Source: Gemmatimonadales bacterium (lineage in GTDB: Bacteria; Gemmatimonadota; Gemmatimonadetes; Longimicrobiales; Gaopeijiaceae). From it: 38,536 nucleotides of DNA. The position numbers and the translations under genes are program-made. The stretch is taken from NCBI GenBank assembly GCA_007695195.1, contig REEG01000117.1:1-38536 (forward strand), written 5' to 3'. Each line of letters begins with the position of its first letter. The stretch's first letter is position 1. The notes beneath the pieces are model-generated. The model made no database searches and was not told where the DNA came from. It was given only the letters and a program-made list of their open reading frames with translations. Shown piece after piece: positions 314-9,969 of this stretch.

Positions 314-363
314 TTGACACAAGGTGGACTTAGTGTCCACTTACTAAGCGACTATTTAGTAAG
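314..363 (+). promoter_or_regulatory. Promoter/operator with overlapping inverted repeats before the AAA ATPase
   Basis: A perfect TTGACA (-35-like) lies at 314-319. It is followed by three interlocked inverted repeats: GTGGAC/GTCCAC (324-329 with 335-340), CTTAGT/ACTAAG (329-334 with 343-348, 8-nt spacer) and CTTACTAA/TTAGTAAG (340-347 with 356-363, 8-nt spacer). The half-site TTAGT or its complement recurs at 330, 343 and 356, exactly 13 bases apart. The block ends 23 bases before the ATG at 387, which has AAGGAG at 378-383. The -10 box is not obvious and may lie inside the repeats, for example near 353. A dimeric repressor binding here would block transcription. Autoregulation by the ATPase's own C-terminal winged helix is an inference. 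Confidence 0.6.
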
Positions 364-386
364 CAAACGCTAACCAGAAGGAGCCT

Positions 387-1580
387 ATGAGCAACCCCTT
401 CCGAATCCACGGGGTCGTGAAACGGCCGTTTTTCGCTGACCGGGAGGACGAAGTGGCTCGAATTGCCGCCCGATTGCAGGAACCCGCCGCGAAAATGCTT
501 GTGTACGGAGAGCGTCGCATGGGGAAAACCTCGGCGATCGCCGTGGCAGTGGAGCAAGTCCACGCGGCCGGTGGCGCGGCAATCGTCGCCGACCTTTCGA
601 CAGCATCCACAGTAGCGGACATGACGAATCGAGTCCTTGGAGCCGCAGGACAGACGCTCGGCCGGAAATGGTCCGATGTGGCTACGGAGTTGGTTCGGTC
701 CGTCGGAGTAAGGCTGAGCATGAGTACGGACCCAACCACCGGCGCAGTCTGGCCCAGCCTTGACATCGGCTACCGTCAAGCCCCGCTGGATGAGCAACAG
801 CAAACCTTCGGGCGCGTCCTCGACACGCTCAACGCTATGGCCGAGCGGCGAAAGCGGGTTCTTGGGCTCGTGCTGGACGAGTTTCAGGAGATCCATCGCT
901 TCGGGGGCGAACAGGCAGAATGGCACCTCCGCGGCACAATCCAGCATCATGAGCATGTGGCCTACGTCCTCGCCGGATCGCGGCCGCGTCTTATTCGGAG
1001 AATGCTTGCCAAGGGGCGCGCCTTCTACGGGATTCTCGATAAGATGGAGTTCGGGCCTATCGAGCCCGGCTATCTCGCCGCGTGGCTGGAGGAGCGGATG
1101 GAGGCGTGCGGCGTGCGCTGCAAAAAGGTCGGTCAGGAATGTATTCAGATCTCGGGACCCAGGACGCGCGACGTGGTCCAACTGGCGCGGAAGACCTTCG
1201 ATCTCGCTGCCGGGGCGGGACGAGCTGACGCCGAATCCGTACGACTAGCCTTTGAGGAACTCGTCGAGGAGGAGGACGGGCCTATTCGATCCTGGTGGGA
1301 TGATCTCACGCCCGCCCAGCAGAACATCATCAGAGCAGTCGCAGTGACGACGGCGGGGATTACGACCGCAGAGACGACGAAGCGCTTCTCGTTGCTCACC
1401 AGTAGCGCAGTGACGCAGGCAATCCGGAAATTCCGGGAGGACGGAGATCTAACGCGCGGCGGACCAAGCGGCTACGTGCTCGACAGCCCGGTTGTGCGGG
1501 GATGGGTGATCTCGAAGGCCCTGCCGGACCTCGGCATGCGACTGCCGTCTACATACCGTCCAGATGATCCCTATTCGTGA
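387..1580 (+). CDS. AAA/STAND-type ATPase (archaeal ATPase-like) with C-terminal winged-helix domain
   Basis: This 397-residue predicted soluble ATPase has a clear P-loop, GERRMGKTS, at residues 41-49, and a Walker B strand LVLDEF at 161-166 (D164, E165). A sensor-like segment AGSRPRL follows near residue 200. The N-terminal FADREDEV segment before the P-loop is typical of the archaeal-ATPase/AAA_16 group (PF01637-like), whose members combine an NTPase with a helix-turn-helix. The last ~90 residues (about 300-385) read like a winged helix. The ATG is supported by AAGGAG 4 bases upstream. The gene stands alone, convergent with the M14 gene, and its codon use is less GC-rich than its neighbours, which suggests transfer. 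The client is unknown; regulatory, defence and toxin-antitoxin-like roles are all possible. The family call is fairly sure, the function is not. Confidence 0.75.
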   Translation: MSNPFRIHGVVKRPFFADREDEVARIAARLQEPAAKMLVYGERRMGKTSAIAVAVEQVHAAGGAAIVADLSTASTVADMTNRVLGAAGQTLGRKWSDVATELVRSVGVRLSMSTDPTTGAVWPSLDIGYRQAPLDEQQQTFGRVLDTLNAMAERRKRVLGLVLDEFQEIHRFGGEQAEWHLRGTIQHHEHVAYVLAGSRPRLIRRMLAKGRAFYGILDKMEFGPIEPGYLAAWLEERMEACGVRCKKVGQECIQISGPRTRDVVQLARKTFDLAAGAGRADAESVRLAFEELVEEEDGPIRSWWDDLTPAQQNIIRAVAVTTAGITTAETTKRFSLLTSSAVTQAIRKFREDGDLTRGGPSGYVLDSPVVRGWVISKALPDLGMRLPSTYRPDDPYS

Positions 1581-1978
1581 CCACACGATCTGCTCGGAGG
1601 TGGTCTTCCATTGCCGATCGAAGCGGGTGAGCACGAGAGCTTTCTGTCCTGCGAACACCCGGATGCGCGAGGTCACTCTGAGACCAACCGGCGCGGGCAC
1701 CTCCGTCGCGGAACAGACCTGCGAGGTCGTGGGGTCGTCTGAGTAGCATAGCTTTCCCCTGTGGTTGCCACTGCAACGTAGTCATGGCCACACCTGCCAA
1801 CGAACGTTGTCGAGCCTCTGCCTACGTTCGTGGTCGGGAGGGGATCGGCCAGGAGCGCGGAGCGGAAACCTCTGGGAGCCGCAGGGGGCATCGTGGCCGA
1901 GAAGAGGACCGTCTGGTGAAAGGACTGCCCCCATAGATCGGGAGTACGGTCACCCCGGGAGTGCGCCCCGCCCCGGAC
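1581..1978. other. 398-base gap between convergent genes
   Basis: No gene is recognisable. The gap separates the plus-strand ATPase from the minus-strand M14 gene, so a terminator is expected. The best candidate is a stem formed by ACGAACGT (1800-1807) and ACGTTCGT (1824-1831) with a 16-nt loop. It can be extended by a few pairs with one bulge and has no clear T-tract. Short minus-strand frames across the gap have no domain-like features. Confidence 0.35.
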
Positions 1979-4900
1979 TCACGACCCCGGTCCGTCCTCA
2001 TCCTCCTCCGGCGGCAGCACCGGCCGCTCCCGGAAGACCCGCCGCACCGCCCCGTCTCCCGCCGCTTCGGCCTCCCTCCGGACCCGGTGCTCTCCGCCCG
2101 CCAGGTACCGCGCCATGGCCAGGTTGTGCTCCAGCCCCACCTGGGCCATGAGGTCGAGCCACGCCCCCCGCGCCGTCTCGTCCGGGGCCTCGGTGGTGGC
2201 CGAGAAGGTCATGATGCGCGGGTCCGTGGGCCCGGACCCGGTGGCCCGCCGGCCCCTCAGCGCCGTGTAGATGAGCATCCCCTCGTGGAAGTGCTCCCGG
2301 AACCCGTCCACCTGCTGGCGCCCGTACCGGGCGTAGCGGGCGTACTGGCGCTCGCTCATGGCCGCCACCTCCGGAATCCGCGTCACCGCCGCCGCCATGG
2401 TGTCCAGGATGGCCATCTGGGCCCGGCCGATCTCCGGATGGTCCGGGTCGTCCACCGGGGTGAAGCCGGGGATGAACCACCCCCGGGGCGCCCACCAGGT
2501 GCGCTGGGTCACCGTCCGCCCCCGCACCCACGCCGCGTATCCGGAGAAGTGCTGCACCCACTCGTGGGACGGGTAGCCGTGGAGGTTCAGGAAGATGTCC
2601 GGGAGCCACGCCGCCATGATCCGGGGGCGGACCTGGGACTCGGGGTAGATGGGGTCGTCGCTCCCGGCCCCGGCGGTGATGTCCATCCCCAGCGCCCCCA
2701 GGTAGCCGGGGTGATGGGTGAAGTCGGGGTTCACGAGCTGCATCTCCCAGGCGAGCTGCGCTCCGTCCGGGTTGGCCAGGGCATCCATGACGATGTTGAC
2801 CCCGCGAAGAAGCTCCTGGACCTCCGGGTCCGTCCCCGCCAGCTCGGCCAAGCGGAGGAGGTGGCTCGTACTCGACACCTCGTTGGCGTGCTGGCGCCCC
2901 GACAGGTACAGGGTGGGACGAAGCGCCGCCAGCTTCGCCTGCCCCACCCGCTCCGCCTCCATGGGGGGGAGGAGGTCGGCGGCGAAGATGGGGTGGCCCA
3001 GATACGAGCGGGCCACGTAGTAGGGGGTCACCTGGGGGAAGGTCCCGAGCTGCGCCAGCAAGGTGTCGTGCTCCGCCGGGGAGATGGGCTCGTCCCACTG
3101 GACCATGGGCGCCGGCCCCGGCGTCCAGCCCTCGGCCCGGAGCGTGGGGTGACGGGTGCCTTGGGGCCGGGGGGTGACGGGGATCCGGACGATCCGGGCG
3201 CCGGGGGCAACTTCCCCGCCGCCATCCGGCGCCGGATCGGCCTCCGCCCCCGCGGCCTCGCCCGTCGGCCCGCCCTCATGGGCAGGCCCCCCCCACTCCT
3301 CCAGGGTGAACCGCACCATGAGGTTCTCCACCCCCTCGAAGGCCAGGGCATCCTCCAGGATCTCCTCCCCATGAAGCCAACGCACCGCCTCCACCATCCC
3401 CTCCAGAAGCGGAATGGGAAGAAGGGTGCGGTCGATGGCCCCTTCGTCGGCCCGACCCCGGTGCTCGTGGAAGCGGTCCTCCGCCTCCCGGGCCTCCACC
3501 TCCACCAGGACCGTCTCCAGCGCTTCCGACCCATCCCCGGCCACCACCTGGATCCCCCGCACCCGGGGCTCTCCGGTGGGCAGGGGGGTCAGGGCGTAAC
3601 GCCAGCGCGCCGCCGGTCCGGGCGGGCCCGACGTCCCGGCCTGTCCCGCCTCATGGGTTCCGGTCCGGTCCCCCGCCGTACCCACCCGCACCACCAGCTC
3701 CGGCGCCGCCCGGGAGCGACCGGTGAGGCTCACCCGGGCCTGTCCCGGGAGCCCGTCGCCGGTGGGATCCATGTGGGGGAGGATCCGCCCGGCGAAGTTC
3801 AGCGCCCCCACCCCGTAGTGCTGCCCCACATGCCCCAGGAAGGCCAGGGTGTGGAAGTAGAGGTCGTTGTGCAGCGATTCCAGCGACGAGATCACCTCCT
3901 CATCCACCCCGATCCGGTGGTTGGGCTCGCTGAGCCGCGCCTCGACCCTCAGCTCATCGAAGAAGGGCGCGTTCCCCGGCGACAGCCGCCCCTCGTGGAG
4001 GTCCATGAGGTAGTCCCGGAGGCGGGGGAGCACCTCTCCCTGCCACTCATCCCAGAACCGCTCCAGGTCCGTCCGCACCCGCCGATCCAGCACCGACTCG
4101 CCGTCCACCTCCGCCCGGATCCAGCCGGTGGGGATCCGCACCTGCTCGTAGTCGGGGTAGAGGTGGAAGTACGGCTCCACCACCCAGGTGGGATCGAAGG
4201 ACTCATCCAGCAGCACTCCGCCCCCGGCCTCCACCACCTGCAGCCGGTAGATCCGCTCGGCCCCCGGCGACGGGCGGAATACCACCGCCGTGTCGTCGAT
4301 CCCCAGCTCCCGGGCCAGGATCTCCTCCACCGGGAAGAGCTCCTGGAGCCAGCGGGTCTCGGATCCCACCACCTGCCAGGGGATCTCGTCCGAATCCACC
4401 AGATGCCGGTAGGTGATCTCGATGCGGTCCCCGGTCCGGCCGCCCCACCCGCCCTCCCGAAGCTCCCGGATCCGGGGAAGAAGGGCGTCCTCGATCCAAC
4501 TGAACCCCTGCTTGTAGGCGTTCAGGACCTGCACCTCCACGGCGTCGGCCCCCGCCCCCTCAATCGCCTCCTGGAGCTCCCGACCCAGCGCCTCCCGGAT
4601 CTCCGGCGGCTCGCTCACCCGGGCCTCCAGCCGAACCCGGCTCCCCGGCGCCACCTGGGGAAGGAGCTCCGCCTCCACCCACCGCCGGAGCTCGTCCACC
4701 TCCCACTCCAGCTCCATCTCCCGGGCGAAGACCTCCTCTCCGGCGCCGAAGCCGGTGGGATGGAGGGTCACCGAGACCGCCGCCTCCGGGAAACGCTCCC
4801 GGATCCGGGCCTCCAGCACCGGCGCCAGCCCGTCGGGCACCGAATCCACCGCCAGCTCCACCGCGATCTCGCCCACCGGCGCGGCCTCCGGGTCCGCCTC

Positions 4901-6574
4901 CGGCGGCCAGTGGGCGTCGGATGGGGCCGGCCCCGGCCGCTCCCCCGCCTCGAGCCGGTCCAGCCACTGCTCCAGCTTCGCCAGCGCCAGCGCCGTCTGG
5001 CCCCGGGCATTCCGGGCCTGGAAGAAGCGCCGGAGGTCCGTCTCCAGCTCATCCAGGGCGTACCCTCCCTTGGGCGACTCTCCGGGCAAGGTGGCGTGGA
5101 GGTTGGGGAGGCGCCGGGCCAGGAGGGAGGTGGCGGCCCGCACGCCGGCCGCTTCCTCCCCTGAGATCACCAGCGCCGGGCGGTCCTCGTCTTCCCCCAG
5201 CCTCACCAGCTCGATGAAGCCCGTCCCGCCCCCGGCCAGCGCCAGCGTCCCGGCGTCCCGAAGCTCCTCCGTCACCGGGTGGCGGGCGCCCAGCAGCACC
5301 GGGAAGCCCAGCTCCGCATCCGGCAGGTCCCGCCCCGCAACCCGCACCAGGGGAAGGCGGATCCCGGTGGTCTCCAGGGCGATGCGCTGCGCCAGCTCCA
5401 TCACCGCCTCCGCCGCCTCGGTCCCGTCCACCGAGAGGAAGAGGTTGGCCAGATCCGGGAGGAGGTCGCCCCGGGTGTCGTGGTAGAAGCCGCCCACCTG
5501 GTAGAGTCCGGCCAGGGAGGCGGGATCCGGGGTCCGGGAGGGGGGAGAGGCGGCGGAGGGGGTGGACCAGGGCTCGGCGGGCCGGATCCGGCGCTCGGCG
5601 CGGCCACCCTCTTCGTCGGTCACCACCACGTCCAGACGGTGGAGCCCGGCGGGGAGAATCTCCGAGGCCTCCGCCTGGGCGAGACGGCCCGCCAGCGCCT
5701 CCCGCGCCTCGGCGGTGCCGGCCTCCACCTCCACCGTCAGGCGGAGGATCCCCTGGCCGGCCTCCCGGACCACGGAGCGGGTGATGCGGAGGGGAAGGTC
5801 GGGGTGAGCCTCTTCGGCCCCGGCTCCCCCCTCGTCACCGGCTTCCTCCCCTGCCAGAAACTCCGCCAGGGCGTCGCGCACTTCCTCCAGACCGGCGCCG
5901 GAGGGGTCCCGGATCCCCGGGTGGATGGCCGAGAGGTGGGCGGCGGCGGCGGCGAGGCCCACCCCGTCGGCGCCGGCGAGCCAGACACCCCCCGACGGGA
6001 GACCCGTCGAGGGAGGCAGGTGGCGGATGAGCCCCTCGCCGGGGGAGAGGGAGGCGAGCTCTTCCTCCGCGTCCACGCTGACGGCGGCCAGGACTTCGGG
6101 CATCCGTCCCACCACCACCACCGGGCGGGGGTCCTCCGGATCGGGGCCCCCACCCACCTCCAGGAGCCCCAGGTCGGTGGCGTAACTCTCGAAGGTGAGG
6201 CGGGCGCCCACATTGGCGGCGGCGGCCACCTCCGACGCCGAGGGCGCCGGGGGGACCAGGATCCGAACGTGGACGAAGTCCACATGGCCGTCCCCATTCC
6301 GGTCCTGGAGGATGGGTCCTGAGGGACGGAGGAGGGCGGTGAGGTCGTCCACCGATTCGGTGACGGCCGTTACCCCTCCGGCCATGGCGAGCGAAGGGCG
6401 TTCGGCGGATCCGGCCCACAGGGGCGCCACCATCAGGACGAGCCCCACCGGGAGCGCCCACAGTCGACCCGACCGGAATCCCCGACGGGTGTTGGGCGGG
6501 CCCCCCGGGCCATTGGCCGACCCCGCGTCCACCCCGCCCCCGGGCCCCAACTCAGTACCGGGGGAGGGGCGCAT
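1979..6574 (-). CDS. Giant secreted M14-family zinc carboxypeptidase-like protein
   Basis: This ~1,531-residue protein has an M14 metallopeptidase domain at its C-terminal end. The zinc-binding HxxE is the HANE in GRQHANEVSS (His ~1229, Glu ~1232), and the third zinc ligand is probably the His in LNLHGYPSHEW (~1332). M14 enzymes cleave C-terminal residues or cell-wall/cyclic peptides. A signal peptide follows the N-terminus (RSGRLWALPVGLVLMVAPLW, then AGSA), so secretion is likely. About 1,200 residues before the peptidase are unassigned. They begin with a Ca-site-like DRNGDGHVDFVHV segment, and a second segment, FYHDTRGDLLPDLANLFL, starts another apparent repeat or domain. Ordinary M14 domains are ~300 residues, so this is a very large form. 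I chose the ATG at 6574, which overlaps the amidohydrolase by 23 bases. A GTG at 6532, just after that gene's stop, is the alternative. It probably shares an operon with the upstream amidohydrolase. Confidence 0.8.
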   Translation of the reverse strand: MRPSPGTELGPGGGVDAGSANGPGGPPNTRRGFRSGRLWALPVGLVLMVAPLWAGSAERPSLAMAGGVTAVTESVDDLTALLRPSGPILQDRNGDGHVDFVHVRILVPPAPSASEVAAAANVGARLTFESYATDLGLLEVGGGPDPEDPRPVVVVGRMPEVLAAVSVDAEEELASLSPGEGLIRHLPPSTGLPSGGVWLAGADGVGLAAAAAHLSAIHPGIRDPSGAGLEEVRDALAEFLAGEEAGDEGGAGAEEAHPDLPLRITRSVVREAGQGILRLTVEVEAGTAEAREALAGRLAQAEASEILPAGLHRLDVVVTDEEGGRAERRIRPAEPWSTPSAASPPSRTPDPASLAGLYQVGGFYHDTRGDLLPDLANLFLSVDGTEAAEAVMELAQRIALETTGIRLPLVRVAGRDLPDAELGFPVLLGARHPVTEELRDAGTLALAGGGTGFIELVRLGEDEDRPALVISGEEAAGVRAATSLLARRLPNLHATLPGESPKGGYALDELETDLRRFFQARNARGQTALALAKLEQWLDRLEAGERPGPAPSDAHWPPEADPEAAPVGEIAVELAVDSVPDGLAPVLEARIRERFPEAAVSVTLHPTGFGAGEEVFAREMELEWEVDELRRWVEAELLPQVAPGSRVRLEARVSEPPEIREALGRELQEAIEGAGADAVEVQVLNAYKQGFSWIEDALLPRIRELREGGWGGRTGDRIEITYRHLVDSDEIPWQVVGSETRWLQELFPVEEILARELGIDDTAVVFRPSPGAERIYRLQVVEAGGGVLLDESFDPTWVVEPYFHLYPDYEQVRIPTGWIRAEVDGESVLDRRVRTDLERFWDEWQGEVLPRLRDYLMDLHEGRLSPGNAPFFDELRVEARLSEPNHRIGVDEEVISSLESLHNDLYFHTLAFLGHVGQHYGVGALNFAGRILPHMDPTGDGLPGQARVSLTGRSRAAPELVVRVGTAGDRTGTHEAGQAGTSGPPGPAARWRYALTPLPTGEPRVRGIQVVAGDGSEALETVLVEVEAREAEDRFHEHRGRADEGAIDRTLLPIPLLEGMVEAVRWLHGEEILEDALAFEGVENLMVRFTLEEWGGPAHEGGPTGEAAGAEADPAPDGGGEVAPGARIVRIPVTPRPQGTRHPTLRAEGWTPGPAPMVQWDEPISPAEHDTLLAQLGTFPQVTPYYVARSYLGHPIFAADLLPPMEAERVGQAKLAALRPTLYLSGRQHANEVSSTSHLLRLAELAGTDPEVQELLRGVNIVMDALANPDGAQLAWEMQLVNPDFTHHPGYLGALGMDITAGAGSDDPIYPESQVRPRIMAAWLPDIFLNLHGYPSHEWVQHFSGYAAWVRGRTVTQRTWWAPRGWFIPGFTPVDDPDHPEIGRAQMAILDTMAAAVTRIPEVAAMSERQYARYARYGRQQVDGFREHFHEGMLIYTALRGRRATGSGPTDPRIMTFSATTEAPDETARGAWLDLMAQVGLEHNLAMARYLAGGEHRVRREAEAAGDGAVRRVFRERPVLPPEEDEDGPGS

Positions 6575-8186
6575 CGGGCGCCATCCCCCGTTCCACCTTC
6601 TGCCGGCGCACCATCTCGGCCACATCTTCCAGGAGCTGCCTGGCGTCGTAGACGATGCCGTCCTTGATGGTGTAGCGGATCCCGCCCACCCGACCGGGCA
6701 GCCCGGTGTCGTCGTCCAGCTTCACCGCCCCGGTCCCGTAGAGGACCTTGAGGTTCGCCAGGGGATTCTCATCCAGGAGGATGAGGTCGGCCAGCTTCCC
6801 GATCTCCACCGTCCCCACCGGCGGCTCCTCGCCCTTGGGCTCCCAGAGCTCCTGGGCTCCGTACAGGGTGGCAGACTGGATCACCTCCAGGGGGTGGAGC
6901 CCCACCTCCCGCAGCAGCTCCAGCTCCTCGATGAACGCGAACCCGTACGTCTTGTAGATGAACCCGGCGTCGGAGCCGGCGGTGAGGCGCCCCCCGGCCC
7001 GGTGGAAGTCCCGGAGGAAGTCCATCCAGCGGCGGTAGAAGGCGCGCCACTCGGCCTCTTCCTCGGTGCCCCAGTAGAACCAGTACGAGCCGTGGGCCCG
7101 ACGGTCGGGGGCAAAGAAGTCCCAGAGCGACGGGAGGGTGTAGGTGTCGTGCCACTCGGCCTGCCGGGCCGCCATGAAGTTCCGGTTGGCCTCGTAGATG
7201 GTCATGGTGGGGTTGATGAAGAAGTCCAGCTCCACGAACTCCCGCACCAGGGCGTTCCACTCGTCGCTGCCCGGCTCATGGACCTGATTCCAGATCCGGG
7301 CCACCTCGGCGAAGCGGTGCTGCTCATTCTGGTAGTTGTAGTCCAGCCGGATGGGCTGGATCTGGTGATCCTTCAGGAGCGACTCCATGAGCCCGTAGAA
7401 GTGGGTGAGGCTGGTGAGCCCCGCCCGCGCCGCGTCCCGGGCATTCATGTGGGCCACCCGGGGCTGGGCCAGGTGCGCCGTGCTCCCCATCCCCACCTGG
7501 TTCGCCTCGTCCACGATGGCGGTGAAGAGGGGGGGCTCCATGGCGCCGGTGTGGAACTTCACCCCGTCCACCCCCTGCTCGTGGGCCCAACGCACCCACT
7601 CCCGCCCCTTCTCCGGCGAGTCGATACGACCCCGATCCCACCCGGAGCCGGGGCGCTGATAGTTGATGATCCGGGGCGCCACGATCTCGTTGGCGGCGCT
7701 CCGGGCCTGCTCCTGAAGGGTCAGGTCGAAGCCGGTGAGGGCCACCCCCCGCACCGTGGTGATGCCGTGGGCCAGCCAGAGCTTGTAGGCGTACTCGAAC
7801 TCGGGGTTCTTGGGTGCGCCGCCGGCGTGGACGTGGGTGTCGATGAAGCCCGGGAGCACGTACATCCCGTGGGCGTCGATCTCCCGGGTGGCGCCGCCGG
7901 GGCGGCCGTCCTCGTTGATCTCAACCCCCGGGTACCCCACCGTCCGGATCTCCACGATCCGGTTCCCCTCGATGACGATGTCGGTGGGCCCCGCCGGGGG
8001 GGCGCCGGTGCCATCGATGAGGACGGCGCCCCGGATGATGAGGCGCTCGAAGGGCCCCTCTCCCTCATCGGCTCCGCGATCCGGAGCGGGAATGGTCTGG
8101 GCTCCGGCCAGCGCCGGGAGCAGAGCCAGCGGGAGCAGAGCCAGAAGAAGGAGGGCGGGGAGTCGATGGAGCGTGGCGGCCTTCAT
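6552..8186 (-). CDS. Secreted amidohydrolase (imidazolonepropionase-like metal-dependent hydrolase)
   Basis: The 544-residue product has a leucine-rich signal peptide (residues 1-29, ending ALAGA) and the amidohydrolase-superfamily hallmarks. These are the metal-binding HxH in FIDTHVH (H118, H120), a GVKFHTG segment where the bridging Lys would sit, the later histidines in STAHLAQP and SLTHFYG, and the metal-ligand Asp in TAGSDAGF. The C-terminal part (IGKLADLILLDENPL) is the usual sandwich domain shared with imidazolonepropionase and prolidase-like exported enzymes. Substrate cannot be read from sequence; dipeptides or cyclic amides are typical. The ATG is preceded by GAGGA about 7 bases upstream. 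It sits between the ETF-QO gene and the giant M14 peptidase on the same strand, so joint use in extracytoplasmic peptide breakdown is plausible. Confidence 0.88.
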   Translation of the reverse strand: MKAATLHRLPALLLLALLPLALLPALAGAQTIPAPDRGADEGEGPFERLIIRGAVLIDGTGAPPAGPTDIVIEGNRIVEIRTVGYPGVEINEDGRPGGATREIDAHGMYVLPGFIDTHVHAGGAPKNPEFEYAYKLWLAHGITTVRGVALTGFDLTLQEQARSAANEIVAPRIINYQRPGSGWDRGRIDSPEKGREWVRWAHEQGVDGVKFHTGAMEPPLFTAIVDEANQVGMGSTAHLAQPRVAHMNARDAARAGLTSLTHFYGLMESLLKDHQIQPIRLDYNYQNEQHRFAEVARIWNQVHEPGSDEWNALVREFVELDFFINPTMTIYEANRNFMAARQAEWHDTYTLPSLWDFFAPDRRAHGSYWFYWGTEEEAEWRAFYRRWMDFLRDFHRAGGRLTAGSDAGFIYKTYGFAFIEELELLREVGLHPLEVIQSATLYGAQELWEPKGEEPPVGTVEIGKLADLILLDENPLANLKVLYGTGAVKLDDDTGLPGRVGGIRYTIKDGIVYDARQLLEDVAEMVRRQKVERGMAPDAPLPRY

Positions 8187-8255
8187 GGACGATCCTCGTT
8201 TGGAGGGCGGGTTCGCTCAGGATGGGAAGAGAGGAGCCGGGCGCCGGCCCGTCCC

Positions 8256-8275
8256 ATTATGGCCCCCCCGGGGGG
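8256..8275 (-). promoter_or_regulatory. Possible promoter of the amidohydrolase/M14 pair
   Basis: In the 115-base gap after ETF-QO the minus strand carries CATAAT (8261-8256), a near-consensus -10 box about 70 bases before the amidohydrolase ATG. No good -35 is seen. The spacer is filled by the palindrome CCCCCCGGGGGG (8264-8275), which could instead belong to a terminator of the ETF-QO gene. Confidence 0.3.
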
Positions 8276-8301
8276 ATGGCGACAGAGCGGCGCCCGAGCC
8301 G

Positions 8302-9969
8302 TCACATGCGGCGGTAGGCCGGTCCGCTTCCACCCTCCCTGGGGGTCCAGCGGGGCCCAACCACGTCGGTGGCCCGGCAGTCGATGCAGTTGGGGGCGTT
8401 CACGATGAGCTTGTCGCCGTCCCGCTCGTAGACGCCGGCGGGGCAGACGTGCTCGTAGAACTCGGCCATCTCCGGGGAGATGTCCTCTCCCACGATGAGG
8501 TGGGACGGGATGTCGTCGCGGGTCTTGTTCCCGGACTTGAAGACGGCGTCCACCTTGGAGAAGGTGAGCTCTCCGTCGGGCTGGAAGGCTGGAGCCGGAG
8601 CCTCCAGGGTGCGGGCTTCGGCGGCGTCCTCCTCCACGGCGATGCGGCCTCCGGGGAAGCGGCCGCCGGTGAGGGTCATGAGACCCGCCTTCACCCCGCC
8701 GCTGTAGAAGCCGGACTTGAAGGCCAGGCGCATATTCCGGGTCCGGTAGAGGTCCTTCATGATGTAGGACTCATTCACCGACTCGGTGTACGATGCGAGA
8801 CCGGCCCGGGAGGTGTCGCCGGCCTTCAGCGCCTGGAAGATGGCCCGGCCCGCCAGGATCCCCGACTTCACGGCGTAGTGGATCCCCTTGAGGCTGGGCA
8901 CGTCCACGTACCCGGCGGCGTCGCCCACCACCAGGGCTCCGTCGCCGTGGCGCCGCTCGGGCACCGAGTAGTAGCCCCCCTCGGGGATGGTCTTGGCTCC
9001 CCACTCCACCATCTCACCGCCGGCCAGGATCTCCCGGACCATGGGGTGCTGCTTGAACTGCTGCAGGAGGCCGTGGACATCCAGGCGGGCGTCCCGGTAG
9101 TCCAGCCCCACCACCAGCCCCAGCGAGACCAGGTTGTCGCCCATGGGGTAGATCCAGCTCCCTCCGAAGGCGTCGTTGGGGAGGGGCCAGCCCAGGGTGT
9201 GGATGACCCGATCCAGCGGCTTCTTCACCTCCCACAGCTCCTTCACCCCCAGGGCGTAGATCTGGGGATTGGGCGAGGTGACGCCCTGCCACTGGAGCCA
9301 GCTCTGGGTGAGGGGGCCACGGCCTCCCTCCGCCAGGACGGTGACCTGGGCGGTGAGGTCCATGGCCGGGGTGTAGCCCGAACCCGGGTTCCCCTCCCGG
9401 TCGAGCCCCGCCGGCACGGTGCGCACGCCGCGAACGGCCTCCCCTTCCACCAGGAGCGACGCCACCGGGAAGCCGGGGAAGACGTTGACCCCCATCTCCT
9501 CGGCGCGGGCGCCCATCCACCGCACCACCTCGCAGAGGGAGGCGACGCGGTTGCCGTGGTTCTTCATGGAGGGCGGGGTGGGGAGTCGGACCGCCGAGCC
9601 CTCGCGCATGAGGTAGACCGCCTCGCCCTCCACCGGACCCTTGAAGGGCATCTCCGATTCGGGGACGTCGGGGAAGAGCTCCCGGAAGGGCTCCGGGTTC
9701 AGGACGGCGCCGGAGAGGCAGTGCTCCCCCAGCTCGGCGGACTTCTCCAGCACACCGATCTCCAGATCGCCCATCTCTCCGTCTTCCTGGACCAGGCGCG
9801 CCAGCTCGATGGCACCCGCCAGGCCGGCGGGGCCGCCGCCTACGAAGAGAACGTCCATGGGAACGGCCTCTTCGTCGGGCTCCTCGGACAGGATGACCTG
9901 GTCGCGGGGAAGGGGGGGCTGGGCCCGGAGGGGGTGGATGGTACCGTTCAGACGTCGGGGCTCGGCCAT
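8302..9969 (-). CDS. Electron-transfer flavoprotein:ubiquinone oxidoreductase (ETF-QO/FixC-like)
   Basis: This 555-residue flavoprotein passes electrons from ETF (acyl-CoA and amino-acid oxidation) to the quinone pool at the membrane. Residues 38-49 hold the FAD-binding VLFVGGGPAG motif, followed by the family segment GEHCLSGAVLNP. The middle (GDAAGYVDVPSLKGIHYAVK) is the second FAD-contact region. The C-terminal ferredoxin-like part has VCPAGVY (C509) and NCIDCRATD (C528, C531), but the position of the fourth expected 4Fe-4S cysteine is Thr534. The rest of the C-terminal signature (GPRWTPREGGSGPAY) is intact. I start at the ATG at 9969, which has GGAG 9 bases upstream, rather than the in-frame ATG at 9984. 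The etfA/B genes are not in the window. It is the first gene of the minus-strand run ETF-QO, amidohydrolase, M14. Confidence 0.9.
   Translation of the reverse strand: MAEPRRLNGTIHPLRAQPPLPRDQVILSEEPDEEAVPMDVLFVGGGPAGLAGAIELARLVQEDGEMGDLEIGVLEKSAELGEHCLSGAVLNPEPFRELFPDVPESEMPFKGPVEGEAVYLMREGSAVRLPTPPSMKNHGNRVASLCEVVRWMGARAEEMGVNVFPGFPVASLLVEGEAVRGVRTVPAGLDREGNPGSGYTPAMDLTAQVTVLAEGGRGPLTQSWLQWQGVTSPNPQIYALGVKELWEVKKPLDRVIHTLGWPLPNDAFGGSWIYPMGDNLVSLGLVVGLDYRDARLDVHGLLQQFKQHPMVREILAGGEMVEWGAKTIPEGGYYSVPERRHGDGALVVGDAAGYVDVPSLKGIHYAVKSGILAGRAIFQALKAGDTSRAGLASYTESVNESYIMKDLYRTRNMRLAFKSGFYSGGVKAGLMTLTGGRFPGGRIAVEEDAAEARTLEAPAPAFQPDGELTFSKVDAVFKSGNKTRDDIPSHLIVGEDISPEMAEFYEHVCPAGVYERDGDKLIVNAPNCIDCRATDVVGPRWTPREGGSGPAYRRM

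Follow-up and report, generated by a model that had tools for sequence, protein, structure and literature searches.

The operator-like array that stands directly before an ATPase_2-like AAA+/winged-helix ATPase gene is probably that gene's own operator: we propose that the ATPase regulates itself, its own winged helix binding short units whose letters are recoded from clade to clade. The array lies at positions 314–386 of the window, by which we mean the whole stretch of DNA that was analysed (38,536 nucleotides). We infer the binder, the effect (repression) and the gate (ATP). We take the ATPase to be the binder because, firstly, the arrays are private to the ATPase gene in the three genomes tested; secondly, no neighbouring gene of at least 90 aa recurs; thirdly, paralogs carry differing repeats; and fourthly, the protein has a C-terminal winged helix. 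The earlier note had already read the array as an operator of this ATPase, possibly bound by the ATPase itself, and the arrays before homologs, the uniqueness of the array in the genome and the winged helix of the structural model now support that reading.

The array and the gene that it precedes

The features of the array and of the gene are the following.

314–319, plus strand: TTGACA, a −35-like hexamer, read from the sequence
324–340, no strand: GTGGAC-TTAGT-GTCCAC, a 6-bp perfect inverted repeat from a repeat search, overlapping half-site 1
330–334, plus strand: half-site 1, TTAGT
340–348, no strand: unit A, CTTACTAAG, a perfect odd-centred 9-bp palindrome
340–363, no strand: CTTACTAA-N8-TTAGTAAG, the core 24-bp palindrome with 8-bp perfect arms, unique in the genome
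343–347, minus strand: half-site 2, ACTAA (TTAGT on the minus strand)
355–363, no strand: unit B, TTTAGTAAG, an odd-centred palindrome in which one position mismatches, placed 15 bp downstream of unit A
356–360, plus strand: half-site 3, TTAGT
369–373, minus strand: half-site 4, GCTAA, with one mismatch, overlooked in the earlier note
376–383, plus strand: AGAAGGAG, ribosome-binding site, by reading
387–1580, plus strand: ATPase_2-like AAA+/winged-helix ATPase, 397 aa
507–530, plus strand: Walker A, GERRMGKT, residues 41–48, from an alignment of 11 sequences
1293–1487, plus strand: C-terminal winged helix, residues 303–367, in the AlphaFold2 model
1401–1442, plus strand: predicted recognition helix, residues 339–352, in the AlphaFold2 model

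Towards the gene, the order is TTGACA, the four half-sites, the ribosome-binding site and then the ATG. TTAGT or its complement had been reported at 330, 343 and 356, exactly 13 bases apart; this is confirmed, and the fourth half-site extends the series to 369, each step being of 13 bases and the orientation alternating. The array had also been placed directly after a TTGACA. That hexamer is indeed present, but 10 bases separate it from the first TTAGT, and we found no good candidate for a matching −10 element downstream of it in the window. The half-sites form TTAGT-N8-ACTAA twice, at 330–347 and, with one mismatch, at 356–373, and these arms show 78% mutual complementarity. An equally spaced triple made of a 5-mer, its complement and the 5-mer arose in 5 of 3,000 dinucleotide shuffles of 120 bp, so that the triple exceeds chance, while for a single sequence alone it is not overwhelming. 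The strongest single element is the core palindrome at 340–363 (p 0.02 when the 110 bp upstream were shuffled 100 times). The 13-base step is a property of these particular letters: the direct-repeat period is 15 in the window (340 to 355) as in the family, and with CTTACTAAG and TTTAGTAAG at 15 bp the window array obeys the family grammar. The mirror element of the GTGGAC inverted repeat does not recur downstream, and the inverted repeat was seen in no relative.

A search of the whole 3.92 Mb genome for TTAGTN8ACTAA with up to one mismatch returned only the two places in the window, and a search for TTASTAAG-N7-TTASTAAG with up to two mismatches returned the window array only. Arrays were private to the ATPase gene in all three genomes tested. 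The sites of the window array are periodic, lie at the promoter of the gene itself and are absent elsewhere in the genome; a wide occurrence before unrelated genes, which the earlier note had named as evidence against its reading, was not found there.

The ATPase gene starts at 387, the contig end being only 386 bp upstream. Among the 11 aligned sequences, G41, R43, G46 and K47 of Walker A are invariant, as is D164, and E165 is nearly so; Walker A and an acidic Walker B are both present in the window protein. Its Pfam match to ATPase_2 scores 28.6 bits, below the curated cut-off of 33.2, and its matches to AAA_16 and AAA_22 are also sub-threshold. ATPase_2 is matched by 31 of 32 homologs at E 0.001, and a MarR_2 match in three of the 32 supports the winged helix. 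The AlphaFold2 model (32 sequences; pLDDT 93, pTM 0.89) consists of an AAA+ domain followed by the winged helix. Its best fold matches in the PDB are PABY2304 (2qen, Z 23.4 over 330 residues) and SSO1545 (2fna, Z 23.1 over 336 residues), followed by DNA-bound Orc1 (2v1u, Z 18.9, rmsd 6.3 over 324 residues). The model thus has the fold expected of Cdc6/Orc1 replication initiators; as modelled, the window protein is SSO1545/Orc1-like, AAA+ plus winged helix.

Homologs are patchily distributed. At E 1e-25 they occur in 45 of the 395 genomes of the phylum and at 1e-60 in 19 of the 154 genomes of the order; four further genomes make up the rest of the genus, and these gave no homolog at 1e-60 and one weak partial match at 1.9e-16. 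Besides Gemmatimonadota, homolog loci come from records titled Bacteroidetes, Ignavibacteria, Opitutales, Akkermansiaceae, Deltaproteobacteria, Chloroflexi, Clostridia and Acidimicrobiia.

Periodic repeats upstream of homologs

For every lag between 6 and 40, direct repeats in the last 120 bp before the homologs were scored against dinucleotide shuffles. From the homolog set, 9 hmmsearch matches were removed because they lacked the N-terminus or exceeded the cut-off; 118 matches gave 71 distinct proteins with a usable start and these gave 67 upstreams, after the loss of one with less than 120 bp upstream and of three near-identical ones. In these 67 non-redundant upstreams, which span several phyla, lag 15 stands out with z 19.3, and 22 of the 67 reach a score of at least 7 at this lag against 0.77 expected; among the upstreams of neighbouring genes, taken as a control, 5 of 171 reach that score. 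The result does not depend on a handful of close relatives, since lag 15 persists in 13 of 34 (z 16.5) when each 50%-identity protein group is represented by a single member. Other lags are enriched as well (14, z 8.8; 22, z 6.4; 39, z 5.5; 30, z 4.3; 24, z 4.2). The remaining 45 homologs stay below the lag-15 score, some having repeats at lags 14, 22 or 39 and several nothing convincing. The arrays are short, with 2–4 units, and lie at promoter distance: where they occur at lag 14 or 15 (40 of 82 upstreams), they extend in the median from −63.5 to −30, counted from the start codon. The upstreams of homologs contain TTGAC more often than shuffles do (18 of 67 against 5.9), and before L024, L049, L107 and L148 a TTGAC-type promoter runs directly into the array.

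The units before individual genes, the last five lines coming from a second set described below, are as follows.

Window and L018: unit CTTA(G/C)TAAG
L037–L039: unit TTGACTCAA, up to four copies
L043: unit AATCACTGATT
L113 and L119: unit TCGGTCCGA
L114: unit CCGGTCCGG
L125: unit GCTAGTAGC
L041: CGTGACG, three copies
L116: TGCGATTCGCA, 14-bp step
L107: ATGGACCAT, 14-bp step
L149: ACTACCAAATCTGGT, three copies
L148: GTTCCACCGGTGGAA
L144: GTAAGTTACAATCGT
L150: ATACTATTACTTGTG
L153: a clear array case

There are 94 perfect 9-mer palindromes with an odd centre where 37.0 are expected (z 9.8); even-centred 8-mer palindromes show no excess (42 against 41.9). Nearer relatives of the window protein share its letters, as does L018 (57% identity), whose units of the CTTA(G/C)TAAG type follow at steps of 11 and 15 bp; others keep the spacing only. 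We set the literal search for TTAGT-8-ACTAA before homologs, proposed in the earlier note, aside as a test of conservation: TTAGTAA is kept by only some relatives while the spacing grammar recurs, and the absence of the motif would be misread as a refutation because distant relatives keep the grammar with other letters. The repeat letters tend to track clades on the protein tree, and operator similarity correlates with protein similarity (Mantel test, p 0.001). This signal does not single out the binder, because the part of the correlation specific to the winged helix (r 0.129) hardly exceeds the part specific to the AAA domain (r 0.086); co-evolution was accordingly rejected as proof of the binder, the signal being weak despite its significance and shared with the AAA domain. 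At L025, two homologs stand in tandem (5986–7185 and 7393–8487, profile scores 498 and 158) with different repeats before each, as if mutually insulated.

The host genome holds two more ATPase_2-type genes, G000:C116 and G000:C84, whose products resemble the window protein only remotely. Before the first (gene at 1769–3256 of its contig; loci L129/L135) are repeats TTTAGTGAACTGTACT and TTTACTAAACTGTACT, 68 bp apart, and before the second (3932–5350; L151) are ATGCTCAAT...ATTGAGCAT. The upstream repeats of these same-genome paralogs (window, L135, L151) differ. Relatives of these two genes, together with ATPase_2 matches in 22 genomes to which other loci had led, made up a second set, in which 35 loci gave 33 usable ones and these gave 26 upstreams, all non-redundant and absent from the first set. 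L139 and L140 were left out for want of a usable start. In this remote set lag 15 reaches z 27.7, with 11 of 26 upstreams at a score of at least 7 against 0.25 expected; lags 30 (z 6.8) and 16 (z 5.4) are also raised, and there is nothing at lag 14.

The 15-bp rule is limited to part of the superfamily, because it was found before only one of 25 DUF4143 ATPases and a clear array before only one of eight plasmid or phage relatives. For DUF4143, 30 loci gave 26 usable ones and 25 upstreams, in which lag 15 is at z 0.0 and lags 22 (z 3.5) and 23 (z 3.0) are weakly raised. The Acidimicrobiia genomes of L053 and L055 (G452 and G453) hold 25 and 35 DUF4143-family matches, and some of the upstreams concerned, for example L188, L184 and L195, contain 22–23-bp repeats or long perfect inverted repeats in place of the 15-bp array. 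The TTTACATTTGGTCGGCC-type unit before the DUF4143 ATPase at L188 recurs every 22 bp (score 20.5); this family may have a second spacing grammar. Plasmid records contributed few homologs, and these are remote (8 records, 19–25% identity). Six of the eight remote plasmid or phage loci are without lag-15 repeats, and L206, whose DNA is AT-rich, has a lag-15 score of 7. On the Vibrio parahaemolyticus plasmid NZ_CP062152.1 (L209), CTAAATCCTAGTGTCTAACTTCTAGTGTCTAACTTTTAG forms a clear lag-14 array (score 17.5) within the 120 bp before 1483, ahead of an annotated 'ATP-binding protein'.

The reader of the array

Under the proposed autoregulation, ATPase protomers would bind successive odd-centred palindromic units through the C-terminal winged helix in 15-bp steps, either as dimers or within a larger AAA+ assembly. 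The bound ATPase would cover the DNA from the −35 element to the ribosome-binding site and so repress its own transcription, and the nucleotide state or a bound ligand would probably open or close the assembly. The position of the array before the start codon suits repression, a direction of regulation that we infer.

Short palindromes ahead of a gene are the usual mark of dimeric repressors. A separate dimeric regulator of the TetR, MarR/HxlR, ArsR or ribbon-helix-helix type, encoded elsewhere, might thus control the ATPase; the palindromes of the array fit it, and some arrays, such as TTAAACCAATTGGTTTAA before L112, look like single-dimer operators. We nevertheless regard such a regulator as unlikely. 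It would lack a site at its own promoter, because the genome contains no further copy of the array. No conserved gene accompanies the ATPase: an all-against-all comparison of the neighbours of the 67 loci gave no recurring neighbour of at least 90 aa, and the largest cluster (14 loci) lies at scattered positions relative to the gene. A separate regulator also leaves unexplained why one 15-bp grammar with changing letters stands before two remote sets of ATPase_2 genes.

Iterons stand directly before rep genes, as the repeats do here before the ATPase gene, and the fold is near that of archaeal Orc1; an Orc1/Cdc6-like ATPase of a former or present replicon, with the repeats as its origin boxes, could be imagined. 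We consider this very improbable, the genes standing alone among unremarkable neighbours in which no element genes recur, the arrays lying at promoter distance with only 2–4 units, and plasmid homologs being so few and remote.

The earlier note had proposed toxin-antitoxin or defence control, and an autorepressed module of either kind would agree with the patchy distribution and with weak PADLOC matches of the proteins to the candidate models PDC-S01, PDC-S27 and mad8. In the window protein, however, these matches span only about 50 residues around the P-loop, and no partner of at least 90 aa is conserved. From 225 neighbour proteins listed, 148 were within the size limit and 133 were scanned after 15 had been dropped (repeats, homologs, fragments, length). 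Among these 133 of 225, PADLOC gave no family in more than two members, its top matches being generic kinase-type models, and Pfam gave no family in more than three; defence and toxin-antitoxin families are not enriched. A toxin-antitoxin pair and a defence island are unsupported because the neighbours covered (at least 90 aa in the comparison, 133 of 225 in the scans) are ordinary and nothing recurs among them, and we hold such a module to be highly unlikely, while the neighbour data do not speak against a defence function of the single gene. That the palindromes act as RNA structure in an mRNA leader, as the folding of 324–386 (z −2.5) might suggest, is barely credible, since the energy comes mostly from the GTGGAC hairpin, which would lie upstream of a start site placed by TTGACA, and many relatives (L037, L043, L149) have direct repeats of short units with no stable stem.

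Self-reading by the ATPase may extend beyond this gene. As a tentative generalization, which we put forward as a conjecture, ATPase_2-type AAA+/winged-helix ATPases could make up an extensive class of self-addressed switches, each reading almost exclusively its own promoter through a fixed 15-bp grammar. Their letters would be recoded together with the protein, insulating paralogs in the same cell from each other, and the fixed step would reflect an ATP-controlled assembly along the DNA, the array being the readout of an AAA+ machine and not a conventional dimer operator. These ATPases are widespread, and the literature searched gave no clear function for them (COG1672, COG1373, DUF4143, DUF234, SSO1545). 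A spacing rule that outlives the turnover of letters names the DNA that each ATPase should bind and predicts a common oligomer geometry; the many natural protein-operator pairs offer material for learning how winged helices choose their letters, and orthogonal pairs of protein and array could serve as insulated repressors.

Comparison with known systems

Autoregulation through an operator array is already known. The 15-bp arrays before ATPase_2 genes are apparently unreported, as no description of them was found in the openly licensed full-text literature. The archaeal proteins SSO1545 and PABY2304 (PDB 2FNA and 2QEN; Pfam ATPase_2, PF01637) have the same overall fold as the window protein at an identity of only about 15%; our searches turned up no regulatory DNA for them. 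Plasmid Rep proteins, also winged-helix and self-repressing, read iterons before their own gene, and the iteron letters diverge between groups. The ATPase arrays resemble them in the repeats before the gene and in the diverging letters, but iterons belong to replicons together with Rep, whereas the ATPase genes are solitary and their product is AAA+. MalT is a STAND-type P-loop signalling ATPase and transcription regulator. IniR, likewise a P-loop signalling ATPase that acts as a transcription regulator, is described as having an SSO1545-like ATPase domain (PMC5760070). Regulators of this STAND type act on other genes and have a large domain for sensing, whereas the window protein ends after its winged helix, its 397-aa model being devoid of a C-terminal repeat or sensor domain of that kind. 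Orc1-2 of Sulfolobus/Saccharolobus, a non-initiator Orc1 with AAA+ and winged-helix domains, is described as a transcription regulator that recognizes an element within the promoter of its own gene, its ATP form being, by inference, the active one (PMC9738581). As presented there, Orc1-2 is a global regulator that recognizes a short common motif, ANTTTC, on many promoters (PMC9738581); the window array, in contrast, is private to its gene, periodic and recoded between relatives.
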